Origin: Thermoplasmata archaeon
GTDB lineage: Archaea > Thermoplasmatota > Thermoplasmata > Lutacidiplasmatales > UBA184
Assembly: GCA_021844945.1 (NCBI GenBank)
Contig: JAKBSJ010000001.1
Span: 1 to 64,000, forward strand
Length of the DNA: 64,000 nucleotides
Reading direction: 5' to 3'
In this document: piece after piece, positions 6,563-15,424 of the stretch
How positions within the stretch are numbered: the stretch's first letter is position 1
How the letters are laid out: each line of letters starts with the position of its first letter
Made by a program: the position numbers and the translations under genes
Notes under the pieces: generated by a model
Database searches by the model: none
What the model was told of the DNA's origin: nothing
The model's input: the letters and a program-made list of their open reading frames with translations, nothing else

Positions 6563-7267
6563 TCAGCGGGCGAACGCGTCCAGGAAGTGCCACCAGGCCC
6601 CGACCGTGCGCTCGGTCGCCCGGAGCGCGGCCCGACGCGCGGCGTTCGAGCGGGCGATCTCGGTGCGCAATACGGTCCGTTCCGCCGTGGAGTGCGCCAC
6701 ATCGGCCTCCGCGTGGACGCGGAAGAACTCGAGCGCGCGACGGGAGCGGACGCCGTAGTGCGTCGCGAGGCCGCGCGCCTTCTCCGCCGCGACCTCGGGA
6801 AAGATCGATTCGTAGGCATAGAGCGCGGCCAGCGCCTCGGGCGCGGTCGCGTCGAGCGCGAGCGACTCGTAGTTCGCGAGCAGCTGCTGCGTGCCGGCCG
6901 TCGGGCGCGCCGCGCGGACGCGCGAGCGTGGGACGTCGATCGCCTCGGCGAAGCGCAGCCACAGTTCGGGGTGCGTGGGATCCCGACCCTCCTCGTCCTG
7001 AAGGTTCTCTAGGAGCCTCCGGCGCGCTCCGGGGTCCGTCAGACGCGCGTAGGCGCCCGCGACGTAGCGCGGGAAGTTCCTCTCGAATTGGTAGTACTGG
7101 CCCGCGTATTCCTGGAGGGTCGAGCGCTCCACCTCGCCGCAGGACCAGGCGACGTAGAACGGATGCCGCAACAGATGGCGCTCGCGGATGACCGATTCGA
7201 TCTCCTTCATGGGGCCGAACCCAGGCACTGGGTACGGGGCTATCTTGGTTTGGGGCCGAGAACGCAA
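6563..7267 (-). CDS. CADD-like heme-oxygenase-fold protein (putative pABA synthase / TenA-PqqC superfamily)
   Basis: RHLLRHPFYVAWSCGEVERSTLQEYAGQYYQFERNFPRYVAGAYAR, DEEGRDPTHPELWLRFAEAI, LYAYESIFPEVAAEKARGLATHYGV, ALEFFRVHAEADVAHS: matches remembered CADD-family motifs. Confidence 0.75.
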   Translation of the reverse strand: MRSRPQTKIAPYPVPGFGPMKEIESVIRERHLLRHPFYVAWSCGEVERSTLQEYAGQYYQFERNFPRYVAGAYARLTDPGARRRLLENLQDEEGRDPTHPELWLRFAEAIDVPRSRVRAARPTAGTQQLLANYESLALDATAPEALAALYAYESIFPEVAAEKARGLATHYGVRSRRALEFFRVHAEADVAHSTAERTVLRTEIARSNAARRAALRATERTVGAWWHFLDAFAR

Positions 7268-7292: not shown

Positions 7293-9974
7293 TTAGCCGA
7301 CGTGGAAGCGTTCGCGCATCACGTACGGAAGGATTCCACCGGCCCGATAGTAGTCGAGCTCGATCGCGGAGCGGAGCTCGCAGCGGGTCTCGAACGTTCG
7401 CTCCCGGCCGTCCGGCGACATCGCGGTCACCCGGACGCGCGCTCCCGGACCGAGCTCGGTCCCGGGCCCGAGCCGAAGGGCGAACGTTTCCGCGCCGGTC
7501 AGGCCGAGCGAGGCCCAGCTCTCTCCTTCGACGAACGAGAGCGGCAGGACTCCCATGTCCACTAGGTTCGCGCGGTGGATCCGTTCGTAGGACTCCGCGA
7601 TGATGGCGCCGACCCCCAGAAGGCGCGGGCCCTTCGCCGCCCAGTCCCGCGAGCTCCCCTGGCCGTAGCTCTTCCCCGCGAGGACGAGGAGGGGGGTCTT
7701 CGTCGCGCGATAGCGTTCGGACGCTTCGAAGATCGTCATCGTCTCGCCGCTCGGGAAAAGACGCGTGTATCCACCCTCCTTCGGCGCGACGAGCTGGTTC
7801 TTCAATCGAACGTTCGCGAACGTCCCGCGGAGCATCACGTCGTGGTCGCCCCGACGCGTTCCGTACGTGTTGAACTCGGCGACCGCGATCCCGCGGCTCC
7901 GGAGGAACGCGCCGGCGGGAGAGCTCTCGGGGATCTCGCCGGCGGGGGAGATGTGGTCGGTCGTGATCTGATCGCCGAACAACGCGAGGACGCGGGCCCC
8001 CTCGGTCAGGACCCCATCCCGGGGCCAGAGCGGGGGCCCGAGCGTCAGGTACGGCGCTTCCTCGAGGTACGTGGACGAAGGGTCCCACGGGTAGATCTCG
8101 CTCTTTGGCGCATGGAGGGATTCCCAATGGACATCTCCGACCTCGATCTCCCGATACTTGGCGCGGAACATCGACGCATCGAGGTCGGCCTCGACGAGCC
8201 GCGCGATCTCCTCCCCGGTCGGCCAGAGGTCCTTCAGGTACACCGACGAGCCGTCGGCGCGCCGCGCGATCGGCTCACGGGTGAGGTCGACGTCCATCCG
8301 TCCCGCGAGCGCGTAGGCCACGACGAGCATCGGGCTCGCGAGGTAGTTCGCCCGGACCAGGTTGTGGATGCGGGCTTCGAAGTTGCGGTTCCCGCTCAGA
8401 ACGGCCGCGACGAACCTATCGTGGGTCACGATCTCCTTCGCGATCGGGTCCGGCAGCGGCCCGGAGTTGCCGATGCACGTGGTGCAGCCGTAGCCGACCA
8501 CGTCGAAGCCGAGCTTCTCCAGAGGGTCGAGCAGTCCGGCCCGCTCCAAGTAGGCGGTCACGACCTTCGAACCCGGCGCGAGGCTCGTCTTGACGTAGGG
8601 CGGCACCTTCAGGCCGAGCTCGACCGCCCTCTTCGCGATCAGGCCCGCGCCCATCATCACCGATGGGTTCGAGGTGTTCGTGCAGCTGGTGATCGCCGCG
8701 ATGACGACGTCGCCGTCGCGGACCGGGGGCTCCGCGTGACCGTTGGGAGGCGTCGGATGGCCCTGCCGGTAGGAGGCCAGCGCCTTCCCGAAGGACTGCG
8801 GCGCCTCGGCGAGGGGTACCGACTCGGCCGGGTTCTTCGGTCCGGCGACCGTCGGAACGATCTTCGAGAGATCGATCGTGAGCGTGTCATCGAAGTCGAG
8901 CTGGCCCTTCGTGTGCGTACCCCAGAGCCCCTGCAGCCGCGCGTAGGTCTCGACCGTATGGATGTGCGATTCGTCCCGGCCGGTGCCGCGCAGATAATTG
9001 GTCGTGGACTCGTCGATCGGGAAGATCGCCGCCGTGGCCCCGAACTCCGGACACATGTTCGCAATCGTGGCTCGGTCCGGTACCGAAAGCTCGCGGACCC
9101 CGGGCCCGAAGAACTCCACGAACATGTCGACGACCCCCCGCTCGCGGAGCCGGTGCGTGATCGTCAGGACGAGATCGGTGGCCGTGATCCCTTGGGCCAG
9201 GCGTCCGGTGAGCTCGACCCCGATCACCCGGGGCTCGCCGAGGAAGTACGGCTCGCCGAGCATGACCGCCTCGGCCTCGATCCCTCCGACCCCCCAACCC
9301 AGCACCGAGAGGCCGTTGACCATCGTGGTATGCGAGTCCGTCCCGATGAGCGTGTCCGGGTACGCGATCCGGTCCCCGTCTGACGCGACCGAGGTGACGA
9401 CCGAAGCGAGGAACTCGAGGTTGACCTGGTGGCAGATACCGTTCCCGGGCGGCACGATCCGCAGGTTCTGGTAGGCGCCCTTCGCCCACTGGAGGAATCG
9501 GTAGCGCTCTCCGTTCCGCTCGTACTCCTTGTCGAGATTGGTGGCGAGCGAGCGCAGCGAGCCGTAGCTGTCGACCTGGACCGAATGATCGACGATCAGG
9601 TCGACCGGCACGACGGGATTGATCTTCGTGGCCGCGACACCGGCCCGGTGGGCGGCACTGCGAAGGGTCGTGAGATCGACCAGAACCGGGATACCGGTGA
9701 AGTCTTGGAGCAGGATGCGGCCGGGATAGAACGGCATCTCGGCGTTCTCGGGCAGCGGCTCCCCTTGCGCGAGCGCGCGCACCAGCGCCGGGTCGGTGCG
9801 CTGGGGATCGAAGTGGCGGAGCAGATTCTCTAGGAGGATGCGGACCGTGAGCGGACGGGCGTGCAGCTTGAGAGGGTCGATGCCCGGGAGGCGGTCGAGA
9901 CGGTAGACGGTGGCGTCCTCGCGACCGAGCTCGACCTTTTCGGTGACGTGAAGGGGGTCGGGTAGGGAGTTCAT
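7293..9974 (-). CDS. acnA: Aconitate hydratase (AcnA type)
   Basis: Start MNSLPDPLHVTEKV; VLVDLTTLR, IGTDSHTTMVNGLSVLGWGVGGIEAEAVMLG, AAITSCTNTSNPSVMMGAGLIA, YGCTTCIGNSGPL, GKSYGQGSSRDWAAKGP. Confidence 0.95.
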   Translation of the reverse strand: MNSLPDPLHVTEKVELGREDATVYRLDRLPGIDPLKLHARPLTVRILLENLLRHFDPQRTDPALVRALAQGEPLPENAEMPFYPGRILLQDFTGIPVLVDLTTLRSAAHRAGVAATKINPVVPVDLIVDHSVQVDSYGSLRSLATNLDKEYERNGERYRFLQWAKGAYQNLRIVPPGNGICHQVNLEFLASVVTSVASDGDRIAYPDTLIGTDSHTTMVNGLSVLGWGVGGIEAEAVMLGEPYFLGEPRVIGVELTGRLAQGITATDLVLTITHRLRERGVVDMFVEFFGPGVRELSVPDRATIANMCPEFGATAAIFPIDESTTNYLRGTGRDESHIHTVETYARLQGLWGTHTKGQLDFDDTLTIDLSKIVPTVAGPKNPAESVPLAEAPQSFGKALASYRQGHPTPPNGHAEPPVRDGDVVIAAITSCTNTSNPSVMMGAGLIAKRAVELGLKVPPYVKTSLAPGSKVVTAYLERAGLLDPLEKLGFDVVGYGCTTCIGNSGPLPDPIAKEIVTHDRFVAAVLSGNRNFEARIHNLVRANYLASPMLVVAYALAGRMDVDLTREPIARRADGSSVYLKDLWPTGEEIARLVEADLDASMFRAKYREIEVGDVHWESLHAPKSEIYPWDPSSTYLEEAPYLTLGPPLWPRDGVLTEGARVLALFGDQITTDHISPAGEIPESSPAGAFLRSRGIAVAEFNTYGTRRGDHDVMLRGTFANVRLKNQLVAPKEGGYTRLFPSGETMTIFEASERYRATKTPLLVLAGKSYGQGSSRDWAAKGPRLLGVGAIIAESYERIHRANLVDMGVLPLSFVEGESWASLGLTGAETFALRLGPGTELGPGARVRVTAMSPDGRERTFETRCELRSAIELDYYRAGGILPYVMRERFHVG

Positions 9975-10411
9975 GAACGCGAGAGACACCGCACCTTCTT
10001 GGGGTCTGCGGGCCCGCTTTCCGGGTCGGGGTCGGCCCGAGAGGGCCGTCAGGACGTAGGCGCACGGCGCACCCACGCGCCCGAGGGACCCCGGAGCCTC
10101 GGTCCGGTCCGTCGATCTCCGTACGGATTCGGACCGATCCGTAACGAGATGTCCGTCGACCGATCGGGTCGTGCGCACCGATCGACCCCACCGAGTGTGG
10201 GAGAGGCGGAGTCCGGGGGTTTCCCCATCCCTTCCATCGGACATCTCCGCCCGATGGGGTGGGCTCCGAGATTCCGGAGAGGGTCGGAGGCCACCGGCTT
10301 ACGGGCCACCGAGCACCGGGCGCTCGGTACTGCACCCATCGTAGGGCGATCCGGTGCACACGGCGGCAAAGCGGCCCGCGTGGAACCCGAGGGAGGGTGG
10401 GGGCGACCCGC

Positions 10412-11377
10412 TCACTCCGAGGCCACTCGCCGGGTCTTCGTCCAGCGGACCCCAATGGTCGACCCCGCGACGGGCCAGAGATGATCGAGCGCTGCGCGGG
10501 CCTCGATCCGTTCGCCCGATTCTCCTCGGGCGATCCCTACCGATTCCCGTCCCACGGTCCCCGCCGCCAGCATCTGCGCGGAGAACCGATCCGGTGCCGC
10601 AGCGACGAATTCGGTGTCCGCCGGGTCGACCGCCACGACCCCACCTCCCTCGGGAAGGACGTTGAAGCCGAGGAACCGCGCCACCGCAGCGGAACGCGGG
10701 TCGGCGAGCAGCTCCGCCGGCGTCCCCAGCGAGCGGATCCGACCCTCGAGCATCACCGCTACGCGATCCCCCAGGAACAGCCCCTCTTCCCGATCGTGCG
10801 TGACGTGGATCGAACTGATCCCGCGGGACGCGAGCGCGCGGCGGAAGTCGCCGCGGAGCTCCCCACGAACCTCGGGATCGATCGCAGCGAAGGGCTCGTC
10901 CAGGAGGATCACGCGCGGGCGCGCGGCGATCGCTCGAGCGAGGGCGACTCGTTGTCGCTCCCCCATGCTCAGCGCGTACCCCGGTCGACCCTCGAACCCT
11001 TCCAGCCGAACCGCCGCCAACGCCTCCGCTGCGATCTGACGCGCTTCGGCCTCCGAACGACGTTGGACGAGCGGGGCGTAGGCCACGTTCTCGAGCACCG
11101 TGCGGTTCGGGAACAGCGCGGGCTCGGAAAGGAGCAGGCTGATGCCGCGGCGGTTCGCGGGAAGATCGGTGACGTCGCGGCCCTCGAGCACGATGCGCCC
11201 GGCCGACGGCCACTCGAGTCCCGCGATGCATCGCAACAGCGTCGTCTTACCGCTGCCGTTGGGACCCATCAGGGCGAGGAACTCCCCCTCGCCCAACTCG
11301 AGATCGATCCCATGGAGGACCGGCAGCCGGTCGACGACCGCCTCGAGCCGGTCGATGCGCAGCAGGACCTCAGGCAT
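10412..11377 (-). CDS. thiQ: ABC transporter ATP-binding protein (thiamine-type)
   Basis: LMGPNGSGKTTLLRCIAGL (Walker A), LSMGERQRVALARAIAARPRVILLDEPFAAID (signature, Walker B). Operon with ThiP/ThiB-like genes. Confidence 0.85.
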   Translation of the reverse strand: MPEVLLRIDRLEAVVDRLPVLHGIDLELGEGEFLALMGPNGSGKTTLLRCIAGLEWPSAGRIVLEGRDVTDLPANRRGISLLLSEPALFPNRTVLENVAYAPLVQRRSEAEARQIAAEALAAVRLEGFEGRPGYALSMGERQRVALARAIAARPRVILLDEPFAAIDPEVRGELRGDFRRALASRGISSIHVTHDREEGLFLGDRVAVMLEGRIRSLGTPAELLADPRSAAVARFLGFNVLPEGGGVVAVDPADTEFVAAAPDRFSAQMLAAGTVGRESVGIARGESGERIEARAALDHLWPVAGSTIGVRWTKTRRVASE

Positions 11378-13028
11378 ACGCTCGCTCCCGGGGTCTCGCC
11401 ATCCCTACGACGATCGCGAACACCGCCAAGCTCACGACCAGGAGGAGCGCGGCGGCCCCGGCGGTCGCGTCGCTGAACCGCTCCCGTTGGAGGGTGTAGA
11501 CGGCGACGCTCAGCGTCGTGAACGGAGGCGTGTAGAGGAAGTAGGTCGCGGTGAACTCGCCGAGGCCGATGGCGAACGCGAAGAGGCCCGCGGTCACGAT
11601 CCCGTTGCGGATCCGGGGAATATCTGCGTCCCAGAACGCGGTCCATCGGCTCGCGCCGAGGCTCCGGGCCGCCTCGGAAGGCGCCGCGGAGAGGCTCGAG
11701 AGAGGGACCTGCACGCTCTGCAGCGCGAACGGCAGGGCGAGGATCGCTTGCGACACTCCAATCAGGACCCAGACCGTCGATTCCCCTCCGAGGATAGGGC
11801 GCCAGAACTCGGCGAGGCTGAACGCGAGCAGGACGGGGGATACGAGCAGTGGGAGGAAGAGGTAGGTGCTGACGCTCCCCTCCCATCGCGGCCGGTTGCG
11901 CAGGGCGAAGGCCGCGAGCAGCACGAGGACGAACGTTGCCGCCGCGGCGAAGACGGCGAACCCGAACGTGTTGACGATCACGTTCCCGATCGGGATGCCC
12001 AAGGTGGCCGTGGTCCGGGACGAGACGAGATCGGACCAGCCCGCTCCGAACGCACCCCCGGACGCCGGCCAAATCGACCGCGCCAGGACCGTGAAGAGAA
12101 CGATCGCGATCCCGGCGAAGACCAGCGAGGCTTCGATCGCGAACGCCGGGCCGATCCAACCGGAGCGGGAGAGCTTCTGCGGGCGGATAGGGCCCCGAGA
12201 GCCCCGTTCCCTTAGACGGTTCGCGAGCAGTACGTAGACGACGATCGGTACGAGCAGGATCAGCACGGCCGCGAGCGCGAGGAGGCTCGCGGCCGTAGGC
12301 TCGAGAAACGTCGAACTGAGCGCGTACACTTGGGCCTCGAGGGTGTAGCATCGGGGCCCGCAGATCATGAGGGGAGAGGCGAACGCGAGGGCCGCGAAGA
12401 CGAACGTGAGCACGACGCCCACGGCCGCGCCGATCAACGAAGGTCCGGCCCAGACGTCCCGGTAGACCCGGGAGGGAGATGCGCCGAGCGTCCGGGAGGT
12501 CTCTTCTAGGTCGCCAGAGGCGCTCTCGCAGCCGAGCGCGGTGTACAGCACGACGAGGGGCACGTTGAAGACCAGATTGGCCAGCACAATCCCGGGCACT
12601 CCTTCCCCCAACCAAGCAAGGGTCGGGACCGCGCTCGAGATGGTCCCACCGGGTCCGAAGAGGTCGAGGATCCCGACGACCACGACCACGGTGGGGAGAA
12701 GGAAAGGAAGGAGCAGGAAGCTGCGGGCTGCGGTCCGGCCGGGGAAGGCATAGCGCGAGAGGAATATCCCGGCGGGATAGCCGACCCCGAACGCGACCAG
12801 CGCACTCAGCGCGCCCTGTTCCAGCGAGTTGTACAGCGACGCCCGGTTGGTCGCCTCACGCCAGACGGTGTCGTAGAGACCGGCCGCCCCGCCTCCGCTG
12901 ACCCATCCGTTTCCGAACAGGAGGGCGACCGGGACCAATGCGAAGAGGAGGACGAACAGGAGGATCGGGATCAGGAGGCCCGCTTCCCCGAAGCGCGGGC
13001 GCGCTACGCGCTCGCGAGCGATTCCCAT
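11370..13028 (-). CDS. thiP: ABC transporter permease, two fused membrane domains (ThiP-like)
   Basis: MGIARERVARPRFGEAGLLIPILLF...; about 12 TM segments; two copies of an EAA-like loop (ASGDLEETSRTLGASPSRVYRDV and APSEAARSLGASRWTAFWDADIPRI). Confidence 0.85.
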   Translation of the reverse strand: MGIARERVARPRFGEAGLLIPILLFVLLFALVPVALLFGNGWVSGGGAAGLYDTVWREATNRASLYNSLEQGALSALVAFGVGYPAGIFLSRYAFPGRTAARSFLLLPFLLPTVVVVVGILDLFGPGGTISSAVPTLAWLGEGVPGIVLANLVFNVPLVVLYTALGCESASGDLEETSRTLGASPSRVYRDVWAGPSLIGAAVGVVLTFVFAALAFASPLMICGPRCYTLEAQVYALSSTFLEPTAASLLALAAVLILLVPIVVYVLLANRLRERGSRGPIRPQKLSRSGWIGPAFAIEASLVFAGIAIVLFTVLARSIWPASGGAFGAGWSDLVSSRTTATLGIPIGNVIVNTFGFAVFAAAATFVLVLLAAFALRNRPRWEGSVSTYLFLPLLVSPVLLAFSLAEFWRPILGGESTVWVLIGVSQAILALPFALQSVQVPLSSLSAAPSEAARSLGASRWTAFWDADIPRIRNGIVTAGLFAFAIGLGEFTATYFLYTPPFTTLSVAVYTLQRERFSDATAGAAALLLVVSLAVFAIVVGMARPRERAYA

Positions 13029-14188
13029 GTGGACAGCCACCCGGTCATGTTGGTCGCGAGTTCGTTCGGCGTCAGCGCGGAGTTCAGCGCGTGGATCGAG
13101 GACGGAGGGATCAGATCGGCCTGCGCGTAGACGGGCGGGAGCACCACGGTCTCGTTGGCCGGGTACTCCCACTCGGTCAGCGGCAGCTGGCCCTGCACGC
13201 TCCCGCTGAGGAAGTAGTGGATGAACTCGTTGTCCAGCGCGACGTGGCCCGACCCCTTGACGATCCCGATCCCGTAGATCGTCTTCCAACCGTAGAGCGT
13301 CCCGTTATCGTTCGTGACGGTCGAGTTGAACGTGCCTCCCTGGCCGTAGTATGTCGCGTAGGCCGGATCGGTGGTATAGCTCACGACCATGGAGTAGGGA
13401 GCCCCGAACTCATCGAACGCCGTATTCCAGTCCGGGGCGGCGGTGGCGTAGGGGAGGACCTTCGACCAGAACGTGGTCCAGTTCTCGTGGAGGACGGACT
13501 CGTAATAGAGTACCTCCCAGGCGAGGAACTCCTCTCCGGTGATCGAGGTCGTCGGATCCTCGTACACGAGCTGGCGCGCCCACGATGAGTTCGCGGCGAA
13601 GTCGGCGAACGTGGAGTTCGCGATCGCGCCTCGCGTGGCGTTGTAGAACGCGTTCGTATAGTCGATCGCGAGGTACCCATACTCATACGGGATGACTTCC
13701 CCATCCGTGGAGATGGCCGCGACCAGAGAGGAGTTGATGTGCGCGAGGTCGGCCGGGTCGCTGTACGGTTGGAGGAGGCCGAGCGCCTCGGCCTGCGGCG
13801 CGGTGATTTCATCGAGGCCGATCACGAGGTCCGCGGCAGGATTGTTCCGCTGTTCGTACAGGGTGCTGACGAGGTTCCCGCTCAGGCAGTCGACCTGGAC
13901 TCGGGCGTGGTATTCGCTCGAGAAGTTCGAGAACACTCCGGCCGCCGGAGTCCCGCTGGTGCAGCACGGCCCGCCGAGGAGGCTCGAGTACGTGTAGATC
14001 GTGATCGTAGGTTCGCCAGGGTTCCCGCTCTCCCCCGTGCCCGCGCAGCCCCCCGCGTAGGAATAATAGAGCGCGAGGCTGGCGACGATAACGACCAGCG
14101 CGATGGCGACCGCGATCAGAGCGGTTCCCAATCGACCGGGACGGCGCAATCGCGCCCGACGAAGCGGCAGGGTCGCGCCCGACGTCAC
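13004..14188 (-). CDS. thiB: Thiamine ABC transporter substrate-binding protein (ThiB/TbpA-like)
   Basis: TM/lipobox-like N-terminus; EPTITIYTYSSLLGG...VDCLSGNLVSTLYEQRNNPAADLVIGLDEITAPQAEALGLLQPY resembles ThiB; overlaps the permease start; TPP riboswitch upstream. Confidence 0.8.
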   Translation of the reverse strand: MTSGATLPLRRARLRRPGRLGTALIAVAIALVVIVASLALYYSYAGGCAGTGESGNPGEPTITIYTYSSLLGGPCCTSGTPAAGVFSNFSSEYHARVQVDCLSGNLVSTLYEQRNNPAADLVIGLDEITAPQAEALGLLQPYSDPADLAHINSSLVAAISTDGEVIPYEYGYLAIDYTNAFYNATRGAIANSTFADFAANSSWARQLVYEDPTTSITGEEFLAWEVLYYESVLHENWTTFWSKVLPYATAAPDWNTAFDEFGAPYSMVVSYTTDPAYATYYGQGGTFNSTVTNDNGTLYGWKTIYGIGIVKGSGHVALDNEFIHYFLSGSVQGQLPLTEWEYPANETVVLPPVYAQADLIPPSSIHALNSALTPNELATNMTGWLSTWESLASA

Positions 14189-14479: not shown

Positions 14480-15424
14480 ATGGGCCAGCCGTCGATTGCG
14501 GAGCTCCGCGTGGGGAGCGAGCGACTCAAGCGCGGGTTCGCGCGGATGCAGCAGGGTGGGGTAATCATGGACGTCACGAACGCCCAGCAGGCCCGCATTG
14601 CCGAGGAGGCGGGCGCGGTCGCGGTCATGGCGCTCGAGAGGGTTCCGTCCGACATCCGCGCGGAGGGCGGAGTGGCGCGCATGGCCGACCCCGCGAAGAT
14701 CCGCGAGATTCAGAACCAGGTTTCGATCCCCGTGATGGCGAAGTGCCGGATCGGTCACACGGCCGAGGCTCGCATCCTCGAAGCGCTCGCCGTGGACATG
14801 ATCGACGAATCCGAGGTCCTCACCCCGGCCGACCCGTTCTACCACGTGGACAAGCACGCGTTCACCATCCCGTTCGTGTGCGGCTGCCGTAACCTAGGCG
14901 AAGCGCTCCGTCGCATCGACGAGGGAGCTGCGATGATCCGGACGAAAGGCGAGGCGGGCACCGGAAACGTCATCGAAGCCGTCCGCCACATACGCCAGGT
15001 CAACCTGGAGGTTGCCCAGGTCCGGAAAATGACCCGAGCCACCCTCGCACGGTGGGCGAAGCGCGAGCGCGTGGCCGTCGCGACCGTCGAGGAGGTTCGC
15101 CGGCTCGGACGCCTTCCCGTGGTCAACTTCGCCGCCGGCGGAATCGCGACGCCTGCGGACGCGGCGCTCTGCCGCTTGCTCGGAGTCGATGGGATCTTCG
15201 TCGGCAGCGGCATCTTCAAGTCCGAGCAGCCCGCCAAGATCGCTCGGGCCGTGGTGGAGGCATCGCTGCATTACGATCAACCCGAGGCTCTCGCACGGGT
15301 CTCCGAGGGACTCGGAGCGCCGATGCACGGCGTCGACGTGAGCCAGCTGCCGCCGAGCGAGCTACTCCAGGCGCGCGAGGCCCATCCTCCCGTTGCGCGC
15401 CGCCCCGGTACCGCCGAAGCCTAG
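14480..15424 (+). CDS. pdxS: Pyridoxal 5'-phosphate synthase PdxS subunit
   Basis: [46 protein letters not shown]...[28 protein letters not shown]. Confidence 0.96.

Follow-up and report, generated by a model that had tools for sequence, protein, structure and literature searches.

A putative self-sacrificing p-aminobenzoate synthase of the CADD type in an aerobic archaeal family

The window analyzed here, a stretch of 64,000 nucleotides from a Thermoplasmata archaeon, encodes a 215-residue protein that, by every sequence and structure test applied, belongs to the family of self-sacrificing p-aminobenzoate (pABA) synthases. We consider it highly probable that the protein is an O2-dependent dimetal pABA synthase with the heme-oxygenase fold, of the type represented by CADD and NePabS, that feeds FolP and replaces PabABC; very probably, the normal route to the folate precursor has given way to this enzyme in the present aerobic archaeon and across most of its family. 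The present analysis establishes the protein's family and fold, the conservation of its residues, its genomic setting, the exclusion of PabB and the decay of the gene beside PabB; on the evolutionary evidence, pABA supply is the selected function of the archaeal protein. The suicide enzymes of this type described in PMC11965152 and PMC13108848 are from bacteria only, archaea not being mentioned, and no paper on archaeal CADD was found in our literature search; an archaeal clade with all the sacrificial residues would thus extend chorismate-independent pABA synthesis by a CADD-type enzyme to a second domain.

Results

The preliminary description of this DNA had placed a CADD-like gene at 6563-7267. 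The open reading frame was confirmed on the minus strand of the window, and all the motifs quoted for its product are present in the translation (HPFYVAW, QYYQFERNFPRY, EEGRDPTHPELW, YAYESIFPEVAAEK and FFRVHAEADVAHS); its start at TTG 7267, an alternative upstream start giving 234 residues, is probably 19 codons too early. ATG 7210 is preferred because the CADD profile and the homologues align from this codon and leave the additional 19 residues uncovered. The gene and its upstream neighbor are as follows.

6563..7210, minus strand: gene of the predicted CADD/PabS-family self-sacrificing pABA synthase (215 residues, ATG 7210; TIGR04305, PDB matches and Foldseek)
7293..10244, minus strand: aconitase gene (Pfam PF00330 and PF00694), upstream of the CADD gene; context, separate from the enzyme

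Adjacency of the CADD and aconitase genes is limited to near relatives (synteny in L005, L007, L014, L028, L033 and L034), and a nearly identical gene (98%) occurs in Thermoplasmata archaeon isolate YS5.bin51. The synteny comparison revealed no folate gene cluster near the CADD gene, the neighbors of which vary widely among relatives. Upstream of the aconitase gene, also on the minus strand, lies an ABC transporter set (10412-14131) that adjoins a PdxS-like gene at 14480; its ATPase is assigned by Pfam, and its long permease and possible substrate-binding protein by reading only.

The CADD model of NCBIfam, TIGR04305, matches the protein with 210 bits (E=3e-62) against a curated cut-off of 200. 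The similarity is well outside what chance would produce, given this E value, that for 1RCW (below) and the 64 orthologues in relatives. The margin over the cut-off is small. Roughly one in three of the orthologues scores below it, many of them only just, so automatic annotation will miss those copies. The preliminary assignment to the CADD family, which was to be judged against TenA and PqqC, is borne out by the model comparison: the PqqC model TIGR02111 gives 51.7 bits against a cut-off of 240 (NCBIfam), ~158 bits below the CADD score, and the model for TenA thiaminase II, TIGR04306, gave no match at E 0.001 in the NCBIfam search. Pfam returns the fold-level families Haem_oxygenas_2 and TENA_THI-4, and the latter match (79 bits) might be read as indicating a TenA-type thiaminase or PqqC; it is, however, explained by the shared fold, and with both the family models and the structural comparison pointing to CADD we reject this identity. 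In a sequence search of solved structures, the first matches were 1rcw (E=2e-38) and 8va9, both Chlamydia CADD, and 9pj4, a 4-aminobenzoate synthase. An AlphaFold model of the 215-residue protein, built from a 38-row alignment (pLDDT 94.8), has the seven-helix heme-oxygenase-like fold of CADD; the top PDB matches from Foldseek were all CADD (TM 0.92-0.95, rmsd 1.3-1.4), with other heme-oxygenase-like enzymes (PqqC, BesC, UndA and TenA) scoring lower (TM up to ~0.85).

Residues were assigned by alignment with CADD and NePabS, and are numbered according to the 215-residue protein with CADD equivalents in brackets. The metal ligands of CADD we take to be Glu81, His88, Glu142, His174, Asp178 and His181, a numbering in line with the conserved columns. 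NePabS is represented in the alignment by the 9pj4 chain, in which the NePabS peptides given in PMC11965152 are found. Functional roles are those given in PMC11965152 and PMC13108848.

7154..7156, minus strand: codon for Tyr19 (CADD Tyr27, NePabS Tyr25), equivalent of the sacrificial pABA scaffold (alignment; role, PMC11965152)
7106..7108, minus strand: codon for Tyr35 (CADD Tyr43, NePabS Tyr41), equivalent of an essential residue (alignment; essentiality, PMC11965152)
7094..7096, minus strand: codon for Tyr39 (CADD Tyr47, NePabS Tyr45), on the proposed radical path (alignment)
6971..6994, minus strand: codons for the metal ligands Glu73 (6992-6994; CADD Glu81) and His80 (6971-6973; CADD His88) (alignment)
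6959..6961, minus strand: codon for Trp84 (CADD Trp92, NePabS Trp99), on the proposed radical path (alignment)
6809..6814, minus strand: codons for Tyr133 (6812-6814; CADD Tyr141) and the metal ligand Glu134 (6809-6811; CADD Glu142) (alignment)
6779..6781, minus strand: codon for Lys144 (CADD Lys152, NePabS Lys159), equivalent of the amine donor (alignment; role, PMC11965152)
6725..6727, minus strand: codon for Phe162 (CADD Tyr170, NePabS Phe177), at the metal-selectivity position (alignment; role, PMC11965152)
6692..6715, minus strand: codons for the metal ligands His166 (6713-6715; CADD His174), Asp170 (6701-6703; CADD Asp178) and His173 (6692-6694; CADD His181) (alignment)

The three-His, three-carboxylate dimetal site is thus complete (Glu73, His80, Glu134, His166, Asp170 and His173), and the expectation that the substrate Tyr, the Lys and the metal-ligand positions would be retained holds for Tyr19, Lys144 and all six ligands. 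Tyr19 and Lys144 are invariant in 62/62 full-length intact copies; Tyr35, Tyr39, Trp84 and the metal ligands are invariant in all intact relatives.

The same genome encodes a second protein of the superfamily.

Contig C3 146401-146955 (L002:1201-1944, minus strand): second HDO protein, with a heme-oxygenase-like domain

This paralogue, which is retained in most family genomes, scores 73 bits on the CADD model and keeps the metal ligands, with Phe, Trp and Leu replacing the sacrificial Tyr, the essential Tyr and the donor Lys, respectively; lacking the sacrificial residues, it was rejected as a second pABA synthase.

The paralogue bears on the possibility that the archaeal protein is a CADD-fold dimetal oxidase acting on a separate small molecule, like PqqC, BesC or UndA, rather than on its own residues. 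The superfamily is chemically diverse, and the reaction cannot be read from its fold alone (reviewed in PMC13108848). Against such an oxidase, however, Tyr19, Tyr35 and Lys144 are invariant in the 62 full-length copies, whereas the paralogue in the same genome keeps the metal ligands but not the equivalents of these three residues; taken with the exclusion of PabB, and the loss of exactly these functions from one copy (see below), this makes a small-molecule substrate improbable.

Of the two characterized enzymes, CADD (CT610) of Chlamydia trachomatis (1RCW/8VA9) is like the archaeal protein in fold at ~33% identity, and has in common with it the six metal ligands, the sacrificial Tyr and Lys, the essential Tyr43, Trp92 and Tyr141. 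The archaeal protein differs in having Phe at the metal-selectivity position, Tyr170, in that its gene is not beside folate genes, and in its archaeal host; the further role of Chlamydia CADD in host-cell death signaling is not expected for it. NePabS (NE1434) of Nitrosomonas europaea shares the HPFYxAW motif, the sacrificial Tyr25 and Lys159, the essential Tyr41 and Phe177 (CADD 170), whereas the archaeal protein has Tyr in place of Phe148 (CADD 141) and is without a ~9-residue insertion (alignment with 9PJ4). CADD homologues of Bacteroidota and Kapaibacteria (L036, L037 and L171-L189) have the same Tyr141/Phe170 pair and all the catalytic residues, with L036 and L037 being 43-44% identical to the archaeal protein; they form clades separate from the archaeal one, and their genomes are without any chorismate-binding enzyme.

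When CADDs were counted as true at 140 bits or more, those in a sample of 400 genomes of the class were confined to the family of the window (65/95 family genomes), 64 orthologues being found in relatives. In the tree, the 63 full-length copies from the family group together as one clade (support 100/99) apart from the bacterial CADDs; this monophyletic archaeal clade joins the bacterial sequences at an open fork in the tree. The host genome is a 5-contig draft (1.26 Mb, 87% complete) and CADD has otherwise been described from bacteria, which raises the question of whether the gene might be foreign to the archaeon, through contamination or an artefact of binning. The window lies, however, within a 406-kb contig (C3), in which the gene sits between genes whose order is kept in the MAGs L033 and L034, and this, together with the single family clade separate from bacteria, leads us to dismiss a foreign origin of this kind.

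The rest of the phylum sample yielded one more CADD, isolated and with all the catalytic residues (L165:1501-2139, 259 bits). It lies in a genome (G561) of another class, and the 80 genomes from that class contain no other; no chorismate-binding enzyme was found in G561, which is 74% complete. The gene represents either a separate transfer or a binning error. A search for plasmid-borne CADD relatives yielded only HDO proteins, 27-29% identical, in Cupriavidus and Caballeronia.

The preliminary description had called for a check of the genome for pabABC and for folate and methanopterin genes, and had raised the question of which pterin the enzyme serves. Gene calling on the whole draft genome and comparison with the folate genes of E. 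coli revealed a single chorismate-binding enzyme, the closest model for which is archaeal TrpE, beside TrpG and TrpD; PabB was not found in the 87%-complete draft, and the two class-IV aminotransferases found are both IlvE-type, neither being PabC. FolP (dihydropteroate synthase, 307 bits) is present, as are FolC, GcvT, FolD, serine hydroxymethyltransferase and MptA, the last where FolE has no match; E. coli FolE, FolB, FolK, FolA, MetF and ThyA had no match in the draft genome. The FolD is that at C3 85813, a candidate at C4 151680 being spurious. The genome thus needs pABA and is without PabB, although, with the MAG 87% complete, gene absences in the host genome alone are weak evidence. Across the family, FolP is above the cut-off in 83/103 genomes, and 35/36 high-quality genomes have a match at E <= 0.001.

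Methanopterin use is frequent in archaea and both pterins have pABA as a precursor, so the pABA could be made for tetrahydromethanopterin, or for some other product, instead of folate. RFAP synthase catalyzes the first methanopterin-specific, committing step of that branch; this marker is, however, absent from the draft genome and from all 103 family genomes at its cut-off, and FolP and FolC are present. We therefore reject methanopterin and regard any destination other than folate as very improbable; on these gene contents, the pterin served would be folate.

The relationship of CADD to PabABC across the family provides evidence as to function. A second chorismate-binding enzyme occurs in 8 family genomes; the 5 tested all matched PabB models best, and in 8/8 genomes the gene is followed by PabA and a PabC-like gene, constituting PabABC operons. 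CADD is missing in 7 of these 8 genomes, and in the eighth (G050) it is decayed. PabB is found in 0/64 genomes with intact CADD and in 8/31 without it (Fisher p=6e-5, a test that ignores shared ancestry).

L158:4958-5596, minus strand: CADD orthologue of G050, an open frame in which the donor Lys, the essential Tyr and two of the six metal ligands are replaced

The substitutions are Y35F, H80C, K144M and D170G, and the copy breaks 10 of the 53 columns showing no variation across the 62 remaining copies, whereas any other copy breaks at most 2. Its sister in the tree is the intact G157 copy, the G050 gene having a long branch (0.56 versus 0), and the two genes are at the same locus with common neighbors. 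The dN/dS between them is 0.37, compared with 0.12-0.23 for similarly close pairs. Selection on the G050 gene is relaxed, though its frame is still open, and the case provides independent evidence, from evolution, that what selection maintains in the CADD family is pABA synthesis.

CADD accounts for the missing PabB in the genomes that carry it. Neither CADD nor PabB was found in 23/95 family genomes, most of which do have FolP, or in 10/38 of those at least 90% complete; the ten with FolP at this completeness are G152, G248, G311, G057, G101, G181, G287, G021, G121 and G205. Retention of FolP in these ten implies another pABA source in the family, which could exist in the present archaeon too; pABA uptake or a third route may operate in such genomes.

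In the Bacteroidota sample, no chorismate-binding enzyme (TrpE included) was found in ~20 CADD-positive genomes (L171-L189 among them), whereas 12/12 CADD-negative genomes tested have 1-3 each, a contrast that is probably confounded with clade and serves as supporting evidence at most.

Discussion

The chemistry itself, i.e. formation of pABA from the protein's own Tyr and Lys with O2, we infer from CADD and NePabS. By analogy with these enzymes, O2 would react at the reduced dimetal site, and a radical or hole would be relayed along aromatic residues as far as Tyr19. The side chain of this Tyr would be cut off, leaving Gly, and oxidized to the carboxylate, with Lys144 supplying the amino group. 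The yield would be at most one pABA per protein molecule, and the pABA would then be taken by FolP toward tetrahydrofolate. The genome encodes cytochrome oxidase subunit I, indicating that O2 is used and making such O2 chemistry plausible.

The open frame of the G050 gene after catalytic loss (dN/dS ~0.37) may reflect a second, non-catalytic role. A composite picture, in which an aerobic family ancestrally acquired a one-shot pABA enzyme with a cambialistic (Fe/Fe or Mn/Fe) Tyr141/Phe170 site, and in which the protein possibly also has a second, non-catalytic role beside PabABC, is offered tentatively, being in our judgment rather doubtful as a whole.

The two characterized enzymes differ in metal use and in two residues close to the metals: CADD, a Mn/Fe enzyme, carries Tyr141 and Tyr170, whereas NePabS, an Fe/Fe enzyme, has Phe at both positions. 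The F148Y variant of NePabS showed similar activity with Fe/Fe and with Mn/Fe and was reported to be cambialistic (PMC11965152). All the archaeal family members and Bacteroidota homologues examined have Tyr141/Phe170 (CADD numbering), a pairing that differs from both characterized enzymes and is the same combination as in NePabS F148Y, from which a cambialistic natural enzyme is predicted. The pairing and the published mutants together suggest that the archaeal site would use Fe/Fe or either metal. Tyr141/Phe170 is an active-site combination not characterized in a natural enzyme in PMC11965152 or PMC13108848, and the archaeal copies offer naturally occurring variants with which metal choice can be tested.
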